Shown here in pieces: positions 3,792 to 62,115 of a stretch of DNA of 64,000 nucleotides. Under the pieces are notes generated by a model. The model was not told the DNA's origin. It worked only from the letters and a program-made list of their open reading frames with translations, and did not search any database. The position numbers and the translations under genes were made by a program. Numbering within the stretch: the stretch's first letter is position 1; the number at the start of each line of letters is the position of its first letter. The stretch is from Streptomyces sp. NBC_01233 (GTDB lineage: Bacteria > Actinomycetota > Actinomycetes > Streptomycetales > Streptomycetaceae): positions 9,838,501-9,902,500 of the forward strand of contig NZ_CP108514.1 in NCBI RefSeq assembly GCF_035989305.1. The letters are read 5' to 3'.

Positions 3792-5153
3792 ATGGAGGAG
3801 TCCAGGGAGGACCACGACGACGGAAGTGTTGCCCGGGTCGCGGCGATCGACATCGCCAAGGCGTCCGGGATGGTGTGTCTGCGCGTCCCGCACGACACCA
3901 TTGAAGGCCGGCGCGTCCAGCAGGTCTGGACGGTCGCGTCCACCACGAACGCGATCCTCGAGCTCGGCGACCGGCTGGTCTGCCAGGGTGTCCAGCGGGT
4001 GGTGATGGAGGCGACGGGCTCGTACTGGCGGCCCTTCTTCTACCTCTTGGAGGCCCGTGGCCTGGAATGTTGGCTGGTCAACGCCCGCGATGTGAAGAAC
4101 GTCCCGGGCCGGCCGAAGACCGACAAGCTGGACGCGGTCTGGCTGGCCAAGCTCGCCGAACGCGGCATGGTCCGCGCTTCGTTCGTACCGCCCAAGCCGG
4201 TCCGGCAGCTACGGGACCTCACCCGCACCCGCACGGTCTTCATCCAGGAACGCACCCGGCACAAGCACCGGGTGGACAAGGCCCTGCAGGACGCGCAGAT
4301 CAAGCTGTCCGACGTTGTCTCGGACCTCTTCGGCCTCTCCGGCCGGGCCATGCTCGACGCCCTGGCCGCCGGTGAACGCAACCCCCGAGCTCTGGCGGAT
4401 CTCGCCAAGGGGAGCCTGGTGAAGAAGAAGCCGGCCCTGGCCGAGGCACTCACCGGGCAGTTCGAAGAACATCACGGCCGCCTGCTGGGAGTGTTGCTGG
4501 GCACCATCGACCACCTCACCGCGCAGGTCCGGGAACTCGACCGGCTGATCGCCGACCTCATGGAACAGACCAGGGCCCCGCACGACGGCACCGGAACCGG
4601 ACCGCCCCGCACAGACGACACCAGCACGTCGTCAGCCCGTGACGCTGTGACCGCGCGGGAACTGGCCGAGCGTCTGGACGCGGTCCCCGGCATCGGACCG
4701 GCCACCGCCCAGATCATCCTCGCCGAGATCGGCTTGGACATGAGCCGCTTCCCCACCCCCGAGCACCTGGTCTCCTGGGCGAAGCTGTGCCCCCGCACGA
4801 TCCAGTCCGGAGCGAAGAACACCACCGGCCCAGCCGGCAAAGGCAACCCCTGGCTCAAGGGCGCCCTCGGCGAGGCCGCCAACGCCGCCGCCCGCACCGA
4901 CACCTTCCTCGGCGCCCGCTACCGCAGGATCGTCAAACGCCGCGGCCACGCCAAAGCCCTCGTCGCCGTCGCCCGCTCGATACTCGTCATCACCTGGCAC
5001 CTGATCAACGACCCCGACGCCCGCTACCAGGAACTCGGCGCCGACTGGCACCAGCGACATCTCAACCCCGCCCGCAAGACCCGCGACCTCGTCCGCCAGC
5101 TCCAGGCCCTCGGCCACCAGGTCACCCTCGCCGCCCCCACTACTGCGGCCTGA
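3792..5153 (+). CDS. IS110-family transposase (DEDD recombinase)
   Basis: A 453-residue RNA-guided recombinase of the IS110 type. The N-terminal RuvC-like domain shows AAIDIAKAS (first Asp, residues about 17-25), VVMEATGSYW (Glu) and KTDKLDAVWLAKL (paired Asp). The C-terminal Tnp_20 domain has GIGPATAQIILAEIG, then SWAKLCPRTIQSGAK and KGNPWLKGAL, which should carry the catalytic Ser. The ATG at 3792 follows GGGGAGGAAG at good spacing. The frame is open for 69 more codons upstream, but that stretch is the non-coding leader. The protein is identical to the one at 49037-50398, implying recent transposition. Confidence 0.93.
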   Translation: MEESREDHDDGSVARVAAIDIAKASGMVCLRVPHDTIEGRRVQQVWTVASTTNAILELGDRLVCQGVQRVVMEATGSYWRPFFYLLEARGLECWLVNARDVKNVPGRPKTDKLDAVWLAKLAERGMVRASFVPPKPVRQLRDLTRTRTVFIQERTRHKHRVDKALQDAQIKLSDVVSDLFGLSGRAMLDALAAGERNPRALADLAKGSLVKKKPALAEALTGQFEEHHGRLLGVLLGTIDHLTAQVRELDRLIADLMEQTRAPHDGTGTGPPRTDDTSTSSARDAVTARELAERLDAVPGIGPATAQIILAEIGLDMSRFPTPEHLVSWAKLCPRTIQSGAKNTTGPAGKGNPWLKGALGEAANAAARTDTFLGARYRRIVKRRGHAKALVAVARSILVITWHLINDPDARYQELGADWHQRHLNPARKTRDLVRQLQALGHQVTLAAPTTAA

Positions 5154-26489: not shown

Positions 26490-27656
26490 ATGCACACGGA
26501 ACACCTCGTCAAGACCTTCGTCGAGTACTTCGAAGGGCGCGACCACCGTCGCATCATCGGCTCGACGCTGCTCCCGCCACCCGGCGACCCCGTGCTCTTC
26601 ACCACCTCCGGCATGCACCCGCTCACCCCCTACCTGGAGGGCCGCCCCCATCCGCTCGGCAAGCGGCTGGTCAACGTGCAGCGCTGTCTGCGCACCACGG
26701 ACCTCGAGGAGGTCGGCGACGCCACTCACCTGACGGTCTTCGAGATGCTCGGTACCTGGTCGCTGGGCGACTACGAGGGTCCGCTCAGCCTCGACTGGGG
26801 ATACGGGCTGCTCACCGAGGGCCTGGGCGTCGATCCCGGGCTGCTGCACGCCACCGTTTTCGCCGGCGACGGCCAGACCGGGCCGGATACCGCCTCACTC
26901 CAGCTGTGGCAGGACCGCGGCGTCCCCGTCGAGCTCTCCGTGGAGGACAACTGGTGGTCCAACGGACCCGTCGGACCATGCGGTCCCGACTCGGAGATCT
27001 TCCTGTGGAGAGGTGACTGCCCTCCCGAGTCGACGCCCACCCGCGACGACCGCTGGGTGGAGGTGTGGAACCACGTCACGATGAGCCACCGCCGGCTCGA
27101 CGACGGTTCCCTCGTGCCCCTTCCCCAGCGCAACGTCGACACCGGACTGGGCCTGGAGCGGCTGGCCTCACTGCTCCAGGGCAAGTCGTCCGTGTTCGAG
27201 TGCGACGTCTTCGACCCCTGGCGCCGCCTCGTGCCGAACCTCTGGCCCCTGGACCAGTCGTCGCTGCGGCTGGTCTGCGACCACCTGCGCTCGGCCATCG
27301 TCGTACTCGGTGACGGCGTGCGCCCGGCCAACACCGGACGGGGCTACGTACTGCGACGCCTCCTGCGACGGGTGCTCACCGTGCTGTGGCGGGACGACTC
27401 CTCGCGCAGCGTCGGCGACCTGCCGGACGAAGTGGTCCGGCACACCCTGGACCACTTCCGGCTGGACATGCGCCCCGGAGACGTGCTCCGGATGGTGCTG
27501 GAGGAGGAACGCCGGTTCCGCCGGCTCCTGGAGCGCGGCCGGAACGTGCTCGCCCGGCCCCGGTTCCAAGGTCCGCTGAACGGGGAGGACTTCCACTACC
27601 TCCACGACACCCATGGCCTGCCGCGGGAGCTGGTCACGAGCCTGCGGCAAGAGTGA
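26490..27656 (+). CDS. alanyl-tRNA synthetase-like protein lacking editing and C-Ala domains
   Basis: A 388-residue paralogue of AlaRS. Motif 2 is clear (QRCLRTTDLEEVGD, then FEMLGTWSLGDY), as is motif 3 (NVDTGLGLERLASLLQ). The tRNA-recognition helices follow (CDHLRSAIVVLGDGVRPANT, GRGYVLRRLLRRVL). It stops right after FHYLHDTHGLPREL, the point where normal AlaRS enters the HxxxH editing domain, so editing and C-Ala are missing. ATG 26490 has GAAGGA upstream; GTG 26469 is an alternative. It may charge tRNA or a carrier protein for a special pathway. No partner gene is obvious. Confidence 0.85.
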   Translation: MHTEHLVKTFVEYFEGRDHRRIIGSTLLPPPGDPVLFTTSGMHPLTPYLEGRPHPLGKRLVNVQRCLRTTDLEEVGDATHLTVFEMLGTWSLGDYEGPLSLDWGYGLLTEGLGVDPGLLHATVFAGDGQTGPDTASLQLWQDRGVPVELSVEDNWWSNGPVGPCGPDSEIFLWRGDCPPESTPTRDDRWVEVWNHVTMSHRRLDDGSLVPLPQRNVDTGLGLERLASLLQGKSSVFECDVFDPWRRLVPNLWPLDQSSLRLVCDHLRSAIVVLGDGVRPANTGRGYVLRRLLRRVLTVLWRDDSSRSVGDLPDEVVRHTLDHFRLDMRPGDVLRMVLEEERRFRRLLERGRNVLARPRFQGPLNGEDFHYLHDTHGLPRELVTSLRQE

Positions 27657-40683: not shown

Positions 40684-40857
40684 TCAGCGCTTGAAGATGT
40701 CCTTGATCTTCTCCTTGGCCTGGCGGGCATCGCCCTTCACCCGCTCGGCGCGGCCTTCGGCGGTCAGCCGCTCATTGCCCACCAGGCGGCCGGCCGCCTC
40801 CTTGAGCTTGCCCTTGACCTGCTCGACCTTGGCCCGGCCCTTCTCGTCCCTCGACAC
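40684..40857 (-). CDS. CsbD-family stress protein
   Basis: A 57-residue very hydrophilic, helical, Lys/Glu-rich protein: KGRAKVEQVKGKLKEAAGRL, followed by GNERLTAEGRAERVKGDARQ. This is the CsbD repeat pattern. In Bacillus the family is controlled by the general-stress sigma factor, and its biochemical role is unknown. GTG 40857 has GGGAG upstream. It lies with PRC-barrel and MscS genes in what looks like an osmotic/general-stress group. Confidence 0.88.
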   Translation of the reverse strand: MSRDEKGRAKVEQVKGKLKEAAGRLVGNERLTAEGRAERVKGDARQAKEKIKDIFKR

Positions 40858-40958: not shown

Positions 40959-41324
40959 TCAGGCGGGCGGGACGCCGAACGGCATGCCGGAGAGGTAGTG
41001 CGCCCCCAGCGCCTCGCGGTGGTCCGCGTTTCCGAGGTGCTCGTCCCGATGGAATTCCGGAGCGGCCTTGATCTGCTCCTTCGTACGGTCCACGTAGACC
41101 TTCTCGGCCGCGTGGTCGATGTGGGTCACCAGCCCGGCCGGCAGCAGGACTTCCTTGCCGAGGATCCACACGCCGGTGTCGACGACCAGATAGGCGTCGC
41201 TGACCTCGTCGGAGTGCTTGTCGACCTTGCCGATGCTTCCGTCGGCCGCCTCGACCCCGTAGCCGGTGAGGTCGGCCGCCAGGTAGTCGACGCCGCCGCG
41301 GTAGGCCCACACGTTCTCCGTCAT
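40959..41324 (-). CDS. PRC-barrel domain protein 1
   Basis: A 121-residue protein with a PRC-barrel (DLTGYGVEAADGSIGKVDKH, then AYLVVDTGVWILGKEVLLPA) and an acidic tail with AAPEFHRDEHLGN. Such proteins bind partners, or RNA in RimM. Their function in streptomycetes is unclear, but they are often stress-induced. ATG 41324 follows GGAGGAGTTGTTTCGC. That leader is also found before its paralogue at 43279. Confidence 0.85.
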   Translation of the reverse strand: MTENVWAYRGGVDYLAADLTGYGVEAADGSIGKVDKHSDEVSDAYLVVDTGVWILGKEVLLPAGLVTHIDHAAEKVYVDRTKEQIKAAPEFHRDEHLGNADHREALGAHYLSGMPFGVPPA

Positions 41325-43278: not shown

Positions 43279-43647
43279 GTTACTGAGCATGTGTGGAGCT
43301 ACAAGTCGACGTCGGGCCACCTGGCCGGCACCGACCTCACCGGCTACAAGGTCGAGGCGGTCGACGGCAGCATCGGCAAGGTCGACAAGCACTCCGACGA
43401 GGTCGGTGACGCCTACCTGGTCGTGGACACCGGTGTGTGGATCTTCGGCAAGGAAGTGCTCCTGCCGGCCAGCACCGTGATCACGGTCGACCCGGACCAG
43501 CGGGTGATCCACGTGGACCGCGCCAAGGAGCAGATCAAGGACTCCCCGGAGTTCCACCGGGAAAAGCACCTCGGCAACGCGGACTACCGTGAGCAGCTGG
43601 GCATGTACTACGGCATCGGCGGCCCCTTCGGCGGCCCGATCGCCTGA
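43279..43647 (+). CDS. PRC-barrel domain protein 2, start codon unclear (GTT)
   Basis: Paralogue of the protein at 40959-41324 over its whole length (VTEHVWSYKS... against MTENVWAYRG...). The leader GGAGGAGCTGTTTCGC matches the paralogue's leader, yet the codon in the start position is GTT (43279-43281) instead of ATG. The next canonical start in frame, GTG 43291, would lose four residues and lie far from the ribosome site. The barrel (DLTGYKVEAVDGSIGKVDKH) is complete at 123 codons. Possible rare GTT initiation, mutation, or sequence error. Confidence 0.7.
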   Translation, partial: VTEHVWSYKSTSGHLAGTDLTGYKVEAVDGSIGKVDKHSDEVGDAYLVVDTGVWIFGKEVLLPASTVITVDPDQRVIHVDRAKEQIKDSPEFHREKHLGNADYREQLGMYYGIGGPFGGPIA

Positions 43648-49036: not shown

Positions 49037-50398
49037 ATGGAGGAGTCCAGGGAGGACCACGACGACGGAAGTGTTGCCCGGGTCGCGGCGATCGACATCG
49101 CCAAGGCGTCCGGGATGGTGTGTCTGCGCGTCCCGCACGACACCATTGAAGGCCGGCGCGTCCAGCAGGTCTGGACGGTCGCGTCCACCACGAACGCGAT
49201 CCTCGAGCTCGGCGACCGGCTGGTCTGCCAGGGTGTCCAGCGGGTGGTGATGGAGGCGACGGGCTCGTACTGGCGGCCCTTCTTCTACCTCTTGGAGGCC
49301 CGTGGCCTGGAATGTTGGCTGGTCAACGCCCGCGATGTGAAGAACGTCCCGGGCCGGCCGAAGACCGACAAGCTGGACGCGGTCTGGCTGGCCAAGCTCG
49401 CCGAACGCGGCATGGTCCGCGCTTCGTTCGTACCGCCCAAGCCGGTCCGGCAGCTACGGGACCTCACCCGCACCCGCACGGTCTTCATCCAGGAACGCAC
49501 CCGGCACAAGCACCGGGTGGACAAGGCCCTGCAGGACGCGCAGATCAAGCTGTCCGACGTTGTCTCGGACCTCTTCGGCCTCTCCGGCCGGGCCATGCTC
49601 GACGCCCTGGCCGCCGGTGAACGCAACCCCCGAGCTCTGGCGGATCTCGCCAAGGGGAGCCTGGTGAAGAAGAAGCCGGCCCTGGCCGAGGCACTCACCG
49701 GGCAGTTCGAAGAACATCACGGCCGCCTGCTGGGAGTGTTGCTGGGCACCATCGACCACCTCACCGCGCAGGTCCGGGAACTCGACCGGCTGATCGCCGA
49801 CCTCATGGAACAGACCAGGGCCCCGCACGACGGCACCGGAACCGGACCGCCCCGCACAGACGACACCAGCACGTCGTCAGCCCGTGACGCTGTGACCGCG
49901 CGGGAACTGGCCGAGCGTCTGGACGCGGTCCCCGGCATCGGACCGGCCACCGCCCAGATCATCCTCGCCGAGATCGGCTTGGACATGAGCCGCTTCCCCA
50001 CCCCCGAGCACCTGGTCTCCTGGGCGAAGCTGTGCCCCCGCACGATCCAGTCCGGAGCGAAGAACACCACCGGCCCAGCCGGCAAAGGCAACCCCTGGCT
50101 CAAGGGCGCCCTCGGCGAGGCCGCCAACGCCGCCGCCCGCACCGACACCTTCCTCGGCGCCCGCTACCGCAGGATCGTCAAACGCCGCGGCCACGCCAAA
50201 GCCCTCGTCGCCGTCGCCCGCTCGATACTCGTCATCACCTGGCACCTGATCAACGACCCCGACGCCCGCTACCAGGAACTCGGCGCCGACTGGCACCAGC
50301 GACATCTCAACCCCGCCCGCAAGACCCGCGACCTCGTCCGCCAGCTCCAGGCCCTCGGCCACCAGGTCACCCTCGCCGCCCCCACTACTGCGGCCTGA
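49037..50398 (+). CDS. IS110-family transposase (copy 2)
   Basis: A 453-residue protein identical in every residue to the one at 3792-5153, with the same GGGGAGGAAG ribosome site. See that entry for the DEDD and Ser motifs. It is intact and is the youngest insertion in this nest. Confidence 0.93.
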   Translation: MEESREDHDDGSVARVAAIDIAKASGMVCLRVPHDTIEGRRVQQVWTVASTTNAILELGDRLVCQGVQRVVMEATGSYWRPFFYLLEARGLECWLVNARDVKNVPGRPKTDKLDAVWLAKLAERGMVRASFVPPKPVRQLRDLTRTRTVFIQERTRHKHRVDKALQDAQIKLSDVVSDLFGLSGRAMLDALAAGERNPRALADLAKGSLVKKKPALAEALTGQFEEHHGRLLGVLLGTIDHLTAQVRELDRLIADLMEQTRAPHDGTGTGPPRTDDTSTSSARDAVTARELAERLDAVPGIGPATAQIILAEIGLDMSRFPTPEHLVSWAKLCPRTIQSGAKNTTGPAGKGNPWLKGALGEAANAAARTDTFLGARYRRIVKRRGHAKALVAVARSILVITWHLINDPDARYQELGADWHQRHLNPARKTRDLVRQLQALGHQVTLAAPTTAA

Positions 50399-58447: not shown

Positions 58448-58870
58448 TCAGCTGTCGGGCTCCGCTGCGGAGATCGCAGCGAGGGCCGACCCCGGGTCCT
58501 GTTCGACCGCGAGGTCGCCCAGCGTGACGACGCCGACGAGGTCACCCTCCTGCGTCTGCACGGGCAGGCGACGCAGCGCGTTCCGGCGCATGAGATCGAG
58601 GGCATGGTCGACCTTGTCGTCGGGGCGGACGGTGACCGGCGCACTGCTGAAGACGGCCTGCACGGTCGTCTCGCCGGGATCCCTGTTCCCGGCCATGGCG
58701 CGGACGACCAGATCCCGATCGGTCAGGATGCCGCACAGCCGGCCCCCGTCGACGACGAGCACGTCTCCGATGTCGGCGTCCCGCATCACCCGCGCCGCCT
58801 CCGCCAGTGAGGTCAGCTTTTCGACGGTCACCGGATTCTTGGTCATCACCTCGTGGACGCGTCGCGTCAT
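58448..58870 (-). CDS. CBS-domain pair protein
   Basis: A 140-residue protein made of two CBS motifs: VHEVMTKNPVTVEKLTSLAE to GILTDRDLVVRAMA, and VQAVFSSAPVTVRPDDKVDH to GVVTLGDLAVEQD. Stand-alone CBS pairs bind adenine nucleotides and act as energy or redox sensors. It lies 104 bases beyond the P450 on the same strand and may be the last gene of that operon. ATG 58870. Confidence 0.88.
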   Translation of the reverse strand: MTRRVHEVMTKNPVTVEKLTSLAEAARVMRDADIGDVLVVDGGRLCGILTDRDLVVRAMAGNRDPGETTVQAVFSSAPVTVRPDDKVDHALDLMRRNALRRLPVQTQEGDLVGVVTLGDLAVEQDPGSALAAISAAEPDS

Positions 58871-58974: not shown

Positions 58975-60279
58975 TCACGCCTGGGGCTGGAACCGCCGGG
59001 CGCCGTGGCTCCTCGGCTGGTGTGCGACTTCGATGACGAATCCGCTGCGGGGCCGGGGCGGGATCCGGCTCAGCGGGATGGCCAGGTCCTGCCGGGGTAC
59101 GGCGAAGTCCAGATCGGCCAGGGCCGGCGCAAGCGCGGCCAGCAGGGAAACGGTGATGTCCTCGCCGGGGCAGCGGTGGCCGGTGCGTGCGTCGCCGCCG
59201 CCCTGCGGGATGAGCGCGTCGCGGCCGGGCTCGTGACCGAGGAAGCGTTCGGGGTCGAAGTGGTAGGGCCGGTCCCACAGGTCCGGGTCGTGATGGTGCC
59301 CGTACACGTCGAGGAGGAGGTGGGTCCCGGCGGGGATCTCGTGACCGGTCAGGACGAGGTCGTGAACGGCGACAGCTCCGATGAAGGGCACGAACGGGTA
59401 GAAACGGCGGACCTCGTGGGCGAACGCGCGGGCCTGGACGCGGCCACCGGCACGCAGCTGGTCGCGCACACCGGGATAGCGGTGGAGGGCGTGGGAGGCG
59501 AAGACGGCGAACCACGTGATCGCGACGGTGGGGCGGATGATGTTCAACAGTTCGACGGCTGCCGTGTGCGGATCGAGCAGAGTGCCGTCCTCGTCGCGGT
59601 GGAGTGCGACCGCCTCCAGGGGGCTCCCCGCCACTGATGCGTGCCGGGACGGGGAGAAGACGCCGTCCGGGTGCGGTCCGAGTCTGCGGAGGTCGGCCAC
59701 GGCCGCCGCGAGGGCCTGCTCCTGGCGGTGCCGGGCGTGCCGGGCCCGTACGCGGCGGGGTCCGGCCGTGGCGAAGCCGTCGATCATGGCGACGCAGTCC
59801 TCGGCGACCTCCCGGGCCGCGTCGTCCGGGACCGGCAGACCCACCCAGTCGCAGACCGCCCGTGTGAGCAGCGTGGCCACCTCGTCGAAGAGGACCACCG
59901 TGCGCCCTTCCCAGGCCGTCACCGCTTCGCGCCAGTCGCGCTCGACGGTCTCGGCCAGGGTGCTGATGGAGCCCGGAGACATCAGCAGGGAGACGAAGAG
60001 CTCCTTGCGCACCCGGTGGGGCGGCCCGTCCAGGGTGTGGACCGCTCCCTTGCCGAAGAGGGTGTCGAGCACGTGTGAGGGGAGGGCACCGTGCCGCTGG
60101 ACGTGGCTCTCGTCGTAGAACAGGGCGACGGCCGCAGGCCCGTGCAGCAGTGCCGCGCGACGGCCGAACAGGTGGGTGGAGACCACGGGCGCACCATGGT
60201 GCGCCCGGCGCAGGTCGGGGGCCCACGCGTAGCCGTGGGTGAGCAGGGACAGGGTGCTGTCGGTCAACAGAACGGACAT
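58975..60279 (-). CDS. cytochrome P450, CYP152-like (fatty-acid peroxygenase type)
   Basis: A 434-residue P450. LFGKGAVHTLDGPPHRVRKE near the start, and IIRPTVAITWFAVFASHALH in the I helix, are hallmarks of CYP152. That family uses hydrogen peroxide to hydroxylate or decarboxylate fatty acids; its Arg-Pro replaces the acid-alcohol pair of normal P450s. EVRRFYPFVPF is the ExxR helix and GGGDARTGHRCPGE the heme loop with the Cys ligand. It needs no ferredoxin partner, and none is nearby. It starts 73 bases after the ADF-like gene, same strand. Confidence 0.9.
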   Translation of the reverse strand: MSVLLTDSTLSLLTHGYAWAPDLRRAHHGAPVVSTHLFGRRAALLHGPAAVALFYDESHVQRHGALPSHVLDTLFGKGAVHTLDGPPHRVRKELFVSLLMSPGSISTLAETVERDWREAVTAWEGRTVVLFDEVATLLTRAVCDWVGLPVPDDAAREVAEDCVAMIDGFATAGPRRVRARHARHRQEQALAAAVADLRRLGPHPDGVFSPSRHASVAGSPLEAVALHRDEDGTLLDPHTAAVELLNIIRPTVAITWFAVFASHALHRYPGVRDQLRAGGRVQARAFAHEVRRFYPFVPFIGAVAVHDLVLTGHEIPAGTHLLLDVYGHHHDPDLWDRPYHFDPERFLGHEPGRDALIPQGGGDARTGHRCPGEDITVSLLAALAPALADLDFAVPRQDLAIPLSRIPPRPRSGFVIEVAHQPRSHGARRFQPQA

Positions 60280-60352: not shown

Positions 60353-60760
60353 TCAGACGGCCTGGGACGCGAGCTCGTTGTAGGCCAGGTCGGACACGTT
60401 CGTGGCCAGGACGGTGACCTGGATTCCGTCCAGGAGGCCCTGGAGGAGGCGATATGCGGAGGAGTACGCGAGCTTGTGCGCCGGCGGCGCTCCGTCGGGC
60501 ATCCAGAGGATCAGCACGAGGTCGTTCCTGCGGGACCCGTCCGGCGCGGCGAAGTGCAGGTCGTACACGACGAACCTGGGTTCGTCGGCCGGTAGCGACT
60601 CCAGCATCTCCTCGTGCGTGAAGTTCGCCTGGCTCTCGACGACCACCGTGTCCAAGGGCTCGTTCAGCCGGTAGACGACCGTGTTGATCTCGCGTCTGCC
60701 CTTCAGCTCCTGCAAGGCGCCCAGGCAGCTGTCGTCCACGGTGGTACTCCGGCTGCTCAC
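60353..60760 (-). CDS. ADF/cofilin-like protein (actin-depolymerising-factor homology domain)
   Basis: A 135-residue protein that follows yeast and plant ADF/cofilin from end to end. VDDSCLGALQELK (residues 8-20) is the first helix, LESLPADEPRFVVYDLHF (53-70) the core LP...R..VYD block, and LVLILWMPDGAPP (81-93) the W-PD-AP turn. HKLAYSSAYRLLQGLLDG (95-112) is the long actin-binding helix (SKMxYASSKDxLxxxLxG in cofilin), then VTVLATNVSDLAYNEL. Length is that of one ADF domain. GTG 60760 has GGGAG upstream and overlaps the stop of the 75-residue gene. In eukaryotes the family severs actin filaments; here the partner is unknown. Confidence 0.82.
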   Translation of the reverse strand: MSSRSTTVDDSCLGALQELKGRREINTVVYRLNEPLDTVVVESQANFTHEEMLESLPADEPRFVVYDLHFAAPDGSRRNDLVLILWMPDGAPPAHKLAYSSAYRLLQGLLDGIQVTVLATNVSDLAYNELASQAV

Positions 60761-61121: not shown

Positions 61122-62063
61122 TCAGGCGGCCGGCGCGTCGTCGGGCACGGGGCCGGCGGCCCAGGCCGGCACCGGCGCCGGAGGCAGGGACCACCGAACC
61201 AGCCGGACCGCTGCGCGGGCCACGGGCCGGACCCACCACCGCTCCAGCGGGAATCGCCGGGGCAGCCCCAGCTCCGCCCGGGCCCAGTCCGGCAGGAGGA
61301 CGACCGCACCCGCGGCCAGGGCCGCGTACGGCAGGCGCAGCGTCCACGGCAGCGGCGGGTGGCGGAGGATGAAGCGGGCCGCCTCCCTGGCCTCGGGGGT
61401 GCCGCGCAGCTGCGGCCGGTGGTCGTCGATGCGGGCGGCGAGTTCCGCAGCGGTGCGTGGCGGGTCGGTGACACCCAGCGCCGCCCCGACCAGCGCCATG
61501 CCCGCCACGTACGCGTCCTGGTCCGGGCCGCTCAGCGGGCGGGAGCCGTAGCGCTGGTGGGAGCGGAGGAAGCAGCTCAGCTCGGCGTCGTGCACCCATT
61601 CCAGGAGGGCGGGGTCCGTGGCCGTGTACGGCTCGCCTCCGGGAGCCTGCCCGCTGACCGTCCTGTGCACCGCGATGACCCGGTCGACCGCCCGTTGCGC
61701 GTCCTCCGCCGTGCCGAAGGTGGTGACGGCGAGGAAGGTGCTGATGCTCTGCAGCCTGCCCCAGGGGTCTTCCCGGTACGCGGAGTGCCGGGCCACTGCG
61801 GCCATCGCCAGAGGGTGCAGGGACTGCAGCAGCAGGGCGCTGATCCCGCCGACGAACAGGGCCGCGTCGGCGTGGACCCGCCGCACGGGGTGGTCCGGCC
61901 CGAACCAGCGCGGACCGGGTGTGAGGTGGATGCGGTTCCGGGTGGCGGGCCCCGAGGGCCCGGCCACCCGCAGGAAGAGAGCCTCGCCCAGCCGCGCACG
62001 GGCACGTTCACGGGCGCCCGCGAACGCACGGGCAGCTGTGAAAACCGTCCTCCACCGGCCCAT
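61122..62063 (-). CDS. DUF2236 (mpaB/latex-clearing-type) oxygenase family protein
   Basis: A 313-residue protein. LFVGGISALLLQSLHPLAMA, then ARHSAYREDPWGRLQSISTF and AVTTFGTAEDAQRAVDRVIA, are the DUF2236 signature, followed by LLEWVHDAELSCFLRSHQRY. The family includes MpaB of mycophenolic acid biosynthesis and relatives of rubber oxygenase Lcp; most members are uncharacterised. ATG 62063 starts MGRWRTVFTAARAF. It is transcribed in the same direction as the ADF operon, 138 bases upstream of it. Confidence 0.85.
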   Translation of the reverse strand: MGRWRTVFTAARAFAGARERARARLGEALFLRVAGPSGPATRNRIHLTPGPRWFGPDHPVRRVHADAALFVGGISALLLQSLHPLAMAAVARHSAYREDPWGRLQSISTFLAVTTFGTAEDAQRAVDRVIAVHRTVSGQAPGGEPYTATDPALLEWVHDAELSCFLRSHQRYGSRPLSGPDQDAYVAGMALVGAALGVTDPPRTAAELAARIDDHRPQLRGTPEAREAARFILRHPPLPWTLRLPYAALAAGAVVLLPDWARAELGLPRRFPLERWWVRPVARAAVRLVRWSLPPAPVPAWAAGPVPDDAPAA

Positions 62064-62115
62064 GAGAGCAGTATGCCCACCGGTCGGCTCCGCGGGCACC
62101 GGACCGGCACGGGAG

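Follow-up and report, generated by a model that had tools for sequence, protein, structure and literature searches.

An ADF/Cofilin Gene in Streptomyces sp. NBC_01233

The DNA analyzed here (hereafter, the window) is a stretch of 64,000 nucleotides from contig NZ_CP108514.1 of Streptomyces sp. NBC_01233 (positions 9,838,501 to 9,902,500), which carries on its minus strand (60353..60760) a gene encoding a cofilin-type (ADF-H) protein of 135 amino acids, with a GTG start codon at 60760–60758 and a stop codon at 60355–60353. This gene is located between a gene encoding an MpaB/Lcp-type oxygenase directly upstream (61122..62099, minus strand; PF09995, E = 3e-56) and a gene encoding a cytochrome P450-type protein directly downstream (58975..60279, minus strand; Pfam PF00067, E = 8e-19); a gene encoding a CBS-domain protein (58448..58870, minus strand; PF00571 matched in two stretches) lies beyond the latter. 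The order MpaB-type oxygenase, ADF, P450, and CBS is common to the window and locus L018 (Streptomyces sp. NRRL F-2580), and CBS proteins are encoded near ADF genes in L018 and on two plasmids as well.

The PF00241 profile matched the window protein with 91.2 bits (curated cut-off 22.4) over profile positions 1–124 of 125, i.e., along the entire domain, and the ADF/cofilin fold was found intact; the protein is an ADF/cofilin-domain protein and a member of the PF00241 domain family. The preliminary description of this DNA, which had proposed an ADF/cofilin-like protein in a bacterium and had named a full-domain profile match and the fold as points to be checked, was borne out on both. No name for the protein was found in the NCBIfam library. 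As no N-terminal hydrophobic stretch could be seen by eye, the protein is probably cytosolic.

Actin-Site Residues

ADF/cofilins bind and sever actin in eukaryotes; few actin regulators are as highly conserved, and these proteins normally go together with actin. The actin-site score used here counts 11 charged positions of yeast cofilin, five of which (K105, D106, R109, R110, and E134) we take to be further actin-site positions. The other six, R96 and K98 (G-actin) and R80, K82, R135, and R138 (F-actin), are given as actin-binding in the excerpted text of PMC3541276. The window protein keeps two of the 11 charges and its clade keeps 2.5 on average (31 rows), as compared to 10.6 in eukaryotes (39 rows) and 10.0 in a mushroom-like group of bacterial rows (25 rows, among them PDB entry 5IVU with 9; also 10.0 over only the 22 rows with a source named or located). 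For the six positions from the PMC3541276 excerpt, the window protein keeps two (R80 and K98), its clade 1.7, the mushroom-like group 5.5, and eukaryotes 5.7.

At the start of the long helix α-3, the canonical G-actin contact (residues 94–100, AHKLAYS; 60461..60481, minus strand), one residue of the basic pair is kept (yeast R96 is A94 and K98 is K96 in the window protein); because the window and yeast proteins align without gaps in this helix, the loss is no alignment artefact. Both residues are present in all 39 eukaryotes, as compared to R96 in two and K98 in 16 of the 31 clade rows; K98 is kept in 12 of the 13 rows of the window's type. One of the four F-actin residues is kept, namely R80, which corresponds to R78 in the F-loop (residues 76–81, SRRNDL; 60518..60535, minus strand), while K82 is replaced by D80 and R135 by Q133, and R138 is absent; the eukaryotic F-actin residues E134, R135, and R138 are all replaced or absent at the C-terminus (residues 129–135; 60356..60376, minus strand). 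Compared with a functional ADF/cofilin, the window protein thus fails at the F-actin site and half fails at the G-actin site, most of the residues that grip actin having been lost. In the 31 clade rows, R80 is retained 29 times and R109 22 times, and the retention of these residues and of K98 makes a residual or altered actin-like contact possible.

Entropy at ten actin-site columns rose in the clade by a mean of 1.20 bits, as compared to 0.07 bits over all 135 columns (p = 0.0004; p = 0.026 against eukaryote-conserved columns; L056 excluded). Part of this loosening is not peculiar to the window's clade, as the same ten columns also showed a relative gain in entropy among the mushroom-like bacterial rows (+0.14 bits versus −0.39 bits overall; p = 0.006). 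Six plasmid copies of the window's type, which lie outside the counts above, keep 2, 2, 2, 2, 2, and 4 of the 11 residues; the less-changed members of the clade include L047, with 6 of 11, and the plasmid copy L093, with 4 of 11. Among the mushroom-like genes, L058:8096–8509, L009:7914–8324, and L059:7874–8284 encode proteins with 6–7 of the 11 residues, the other counted members having 9–11.

Distribution among Genomes and Plasmids

When the whole database was searched with the window protein, 12 proteins were retrieved: the protein itself, eight that bear a Streptomyces name, and three of unnamed source. Among 392 Streptomyces genomes, 21 were matched at an E-value of 0.001 by A2, a profile built for the window's type, 18 by PF00241, and 22 by at least one of the two profiles; 17 of these 22 contain a whole or nearly whole domain, one (G078) a truncated copy, and four (G655, G098, G083, and G087) fragments, of which that in G087 comprises 21 residues and is perhaps due to chance. 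The truncated copy is a mushroom-like ADF (L012:7858–8151) with a frame that is open solely across the middle of the domain. Near-complete copies of the window's type were found in 15 of the 392 genomes, and the clade is patchy across Streptomyces. In a phylum sample of 396 genomes, the window's own genome alone was matched; a scan of genome contigs with patterns derived from A2, which perhaps excluded near kin of the window, identified eight loci, all in Streptomyces.

Six linear Streptomyces plasmids carry the window's type (72,556 plasmid records searched), and stress-type genes surround some of the copies. On contigs holding most of a chromosome, five of six near-complete copies are located within 0.3 Mb of the contig end, a count which assumes that contig ends are chromosome ends. 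Phage or viral carriage of the gene was considered and rejected, as the ADF type had no match in phages and no confirmed match in viral contigs.

Two Kinds of Streptomycete ADF and Their Origin

Streptomycetes hold two kinds of ADF. A search with the streptomycete ADF of L058 gave 185 proteins; among the best 120 of these, Streptomyces, Embleya, and Kitasatospora proteins interleave with Agaricomycete cofilins, with identities of 66% to Lyophyllum shimeji and 64% to Termitomyces. The closest matches of a third streptomycete ADF, that of L059 (Streptomyces sp. WAC05374), after its own record, are a protein whose source is not named (64%) and a Dipsacomyces cofilin (59%). A maximum-likelihood tree was built from 95 proteins. 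In it, 31 window-type rows (including P0010–P0012, source not named) form one side of a branch with a support of 100/100 and a long stem (1.3). Twenty-two mushroom-like rows labeled as bacterial group with Lyophyllum and Termitomyces (98/89), L059 and P0134 stand beside Dipsacomyces (95/88), and 5IVU falls in the mushroom-like region; the bacterial labels of the mushroom-like P0025 and P0030 and of P0134 belong to records with no source named. The tree and the counts were made without P0001 (the window's own), P0009 (the L017 contig), the truncated G078 copy, and the G655, G098, G083, and G087 fragments, as well as L021, L022, and L024, which are the same contigs as G042, G046, and G071. One genome, G024, carries both kinds of ADF, and the strain label NPDC057705 is found on both P0003 and P0068.

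In the free tree, the mushroom-like bacterial rows are nested among Agaricomycetes, whereas the window's clade is not, its long stem being placed near the base of the sampled eukaryotes. This placement, as well as the presence of actophorin (38% identity) among the best matches of the window protein in the 95-row set, would fit an older, separate transfer from another eukaryote rather than a captured mushroom cofilin, an origin that we regard as a serious, if somewhat doubtful, contender; it concerns origin alone and is compatible with a repurposed cofilin. Evidence against a separate transfer comes from a search in which the window's clade was held together with the main mushroom-like bacterial group, which scored 15 log units above the free search (p-AU = 0.78), and the free tree is therefore not optimal; holding the clade with all mushroom-like bacterial rows scored 29 log units below (p-AU = 0.11). 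In addition, the less-changed L047 and L093 exist, and within the 95-row set L047 has its best hits beyond its own clade among basidiomycete proteins (37–40% identity). Because grouping with the main mushroom-like group gives a p-AU of 0.78, a single capture followed by divergence is allowed.

Actin Homologs in the Hosts

The window's genome presented three strong MreB/Mbl matches and a weak fourth one, which, judging by its frame of 646 residues, is probably DnaK; an Actin family search of this genome found nothing beyond two of the MreB/Mbl loci. Seven other ADF carriers showed no clear actin and only weak matches (about 20–46 bits each, and up to about 50 bits when joined), which we read as MreB/Mbl-type rather than actin. 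No clear actin was found in G684, G636, and G024, the carriers of mushroom-like copies with 6–7 of the 11 actin-site residues.

The MreB/Mbl homologs of the host, the intact fold, and the retention of R80 and, in nearly all rows of the window's type, K98 are consistent with a working ADF/cofilin that would act through its canonical face on an actin-like filament of the bacterium, be it MreB, Mbl, or another; this function is nevertheless unlikely, as the clade shows no constraint on most residues of the G-actin helix and the F-site and any ADF match occurs in just 22 of 392 Streptomyces genomes. MreB is generally found in the genus Streptomyces, so that a type with this distribution cannot be a core MreB factor; a core MreB/Mbl cofactor is not the favored explanation, for this reason and because of the mostly unconstrained actin face. 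Of the two uses offered in the preliminary description, binding of an actin-like filament is weakened by the retention of two residues of 11 (as compared to 10.6 in eukaryotes), and use of the fold for something else is better supported. With most of its actin-gripping residues lost, the window protein probably serves another purpose now, perhaps in the response to stress.

Less probable still is an action on foreign eukaryotic actin (e.g., that of fungi, amoebae, or nematodes, as competitors or grazers) following release or delivery. Kinship with eukaryotic proteins and the mean of 10 of 11 actin residues in mushroom-like streptomycete ADFs are in line with such a role, and for the copies in G684, G636, and G024 the sole obvious actin target would be foreign because these carriers have no clear actin; the window type, however, retains only a minor part of the actin site, and by eye the window protein shows no signal peptide.

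Newly Conserved Positions and Selection

The window's clade has conserved motifs of its own (R..NT, N.TH.E, and RR). In motif 1 (residues 23–28, REINTV; 60677..60694, minus strand), N26 and T27 stand where eukaryotes have K and Y, while motif 2 (residues 46–51; 60608..60625, minus strand) reads NFTHEE in the window and NLTHDE or NLTHEE in most relatives. N26, T27, and H49, along with others, switched to new conserved residues in the clade, and N46, T48, E51, A71, and R77 are conserved anew; the pair R77-R78 is conserved in the Streptomyces clade, R78 being the retained eukaryotic R80. The new motif is nearly unaltered in five of the six plasmid copies (L093 fits less well), and the clade-wide invariant residues persist in proteins with as little as 37% identity to the window protein.

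dN/dS values computed by YN00, which cover 8 of 11 pairs, were 0.165–0.216 within the window type (three pairs) and 0.06–0.38 in the remaining five computable pairs. NG86 gave 0.61–1.09 within the window type, so that weak constraint is possible, and 0.15–0.56 elsewhere; constraint on the window type is at most moderate. That the gene was acquired and is now decaying without a selected function, as might be suggested by the patchy distribution, the fragmentary and truncated copies described above, and the NG86 values, is improbable in view of the invariant residues kept down to 37% identity, the open frames in 15 genomes and six plasmids, and the YN00 values.

Genomic Neighborhood

No single operon was found across the ADF loci. 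Neighbor genes were counted at 19 of the 21 window-type loci (L020 and L023, both syntenic with L013, were left out) and comprised 143 genes, a total of 145 less two short ones of L056; the top 25 families were listed for these and for a control set of 118 genes taken from 16 regions elsewhere in ADF-match genomes, nine of which represent mirror chromosome positions. Genes for STAS (four), DUF2267 (four), and Asp23, holin-X, CBS, and HSP20 (two each) were found among the neighbors, none of these being in the top 25 control families; SpoIIE was found three times among neighbors and three times among controls. Stress-type genes are thus commoner around the clade than in controls, in a count that was made after the pattern had been noticed, used a simple ORF caller, and counted genes rather than loci, with several of the numbers deriving from two loci: all four DUF2267 and both HSP20 genes come from L048 and L055, and both CBS genes, judging by the gene maps, come from the syntenic window and L018 loci.

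A gene encoding a small isoamylase-early-set protein lies no more than 1.5 kb from the ADF gene at six of the 21 chromosomal window-type loci (L013, L014, L023, L049, L051, and L052), and in L023 it ends six bases ahead of the ADF gene. Such a gene is also present in three of four annotated plasmids, with proteins 67–75% identical to that of L023; the name was taken from the plasmid records, the Pfam profiles AMPK1_CBM and CBM_48 scoring below their cut-offs. The window's own nearest neighbors are the P450 and MpaB oxygenase genes, with no adjacent isoamylase-early-set gene. The isoamylase-early-set family occurs in 9 of 15 window-type genomes, as compared to 3 of 38 other Streptomyces genomes (41 genomes minus the carriers G000, G024, and G039; p = 0.0002), a difference of which shared ancestry may explain part.

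In genome G549, a STAS domain and a very divergent ADF domain are found in one protein (L056:7859–8650, minus strand), and the same locus contains a gene (L056:4740–6821) that, judged from its cluster, is SpoIIE-like.

Proposed Function

We consider it probable on balance, with some reservation, that the window gene derives from a captured eukaryotic cofilin that was remodeled into a non-actin binding module and is found in accessory, often stress-type loci. A eukaryotic cofilin gene would have entered streptomycetes; one descendant lineage, which includes the window gene, kept the ADF fold, lost most actin-binding charges, and fixed the new residues R23, N26, T27, N46, T48, H49, E51, and R77 (R78 being a eukaryotic leftover). 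The window-type protein would now most likely be a small module of the cytosol that binds some other bacterial partner, encoded in putatively accessory loci that often contain stress-type genes and that may have spread via linear plasmids and chromosome ends. The foremost candidates for such a partner are the partner-switch STAS/SpoIIE proteins and the isoamylase-early-set protein encoded next to the ADF. A more specific account, according to which a fungal cofilin was captured and one lineage lost its grip on actin, fixed a new binding surface, and turned into a stress adaptor spread by plasmids (in one case fused to an anti-sigma antagonist domain), with sister copies keeping most of the actin site in hosts without clear actin, is plausible but tentative, and we would expect at least some part of it to fail.

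If this account is correct, a cytoskeletal protein would be present within one genus in its original, intermediate, and repurposed states. A bacterial lineage in which the fold is kept while most of the actin site is discarded, and which spreads by linear plasmids, would represent a natural experiment in the repurposing of a cytoskeletal domain. The mushroom-like sister group would either target foreign actin or bind a bacterial filament, a question that is testable because this group combines a largely intact actin site with cells without clear actin.

Relation to Known Cofilins

A Streptomyces cofilin as such is not new. A 2009 table, in the excerpt of PMC2651865, gives a cofilin homolog only in Streptomyces, with probable horizontal gene transfer, and PDB entry 5IVU (2017) is a Streptomyces griseoflavus cofilin; this structure and the table entry put on record a streptomycete member, whereas the preliminary description had not been aware of a characterized one. 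Such proteins appear in NCBI as "actin-binding ADF family protein", a name that is probably misleading for the window's type, and in PLSDB as "cofilin family protein". Among the open PMC papers searched (subscription papers and preprints lying outside this scope), no description of the loss of the actin site in a streptomycete ADF was found; none of the open PMC matches listed concerned the two-kind split, the new motif, or the plasmid stress-gene setting, and searches of open PMC text found no paper on the Streptomyces griseoflavus cofilin, 5IVU, or bacterial cofilin.

Unlike eukaryotic ADF/cofilins (yeast Cof1, 1CFY/1COF; actophorin, 1AHQ; thermostable actophorin, 7SOG), the window protein keeps two of 11 charges, has new clade-specific motifs, and occurs in a host without clear actin. 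The Streptomyces griseoflavus cofilin shares genus and fold with the window protein and is 32–33% identical to it. However, 5IVU and the mushroom-like streptomycete ADFs are close to Agaricomycetes (up to 66% identity for L058 among the best 120 of 185 matches), nest among fungi, and mostly keep the site that the window type has mostly lost. Coactosin, the twinfilin ADF-H domain, GMF, and the drebrin/Abp1 ADF-H domain are eukaryotic and show a sequence identity of 14–24%.

Upstream Sequences and Other Features of the Window

A sigma-B-like promoter was considered for the ADF genes and rejected, as 6 of 24 upstream regions of 250 bp fit a loose pattern, as compared to a background rate of 0.235. 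A stretch around GGTTCGTTGAGC upstream of the ADF gene is exact in L019 and L054 and similar in L047, L053, and L055, with a stretch around TCGTTGAGC located about 45 bases before the ADF start codon (CG in place of AG in L053); this shared upstream stretch could be a promoter element.

Elsewhere in the window, a CsbD-like protein (Pfam) is encoded at 40684–40857, and the genes at 40959–41324 and 43291–43647 presumably encode PRC-barrel-like proteins, with no Pfam match at 1e-5; both kinds occur beside other ADF genes. The 388-amino-acid protein encoded at 26490–27656 resembles class II alanine-type tRNA synthetases (PF01411, E = 2e-82) in their N-terminal part (profile positions 3–405 of 552), and genes with a similar start are located near ADF in L013 (5184–6350) and L023 (9735–10901). 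The window also contains many transposase-like genes, one of which is present twice (3792–5153 and 49037–50398) in copies that are identical across all 1362 bases.
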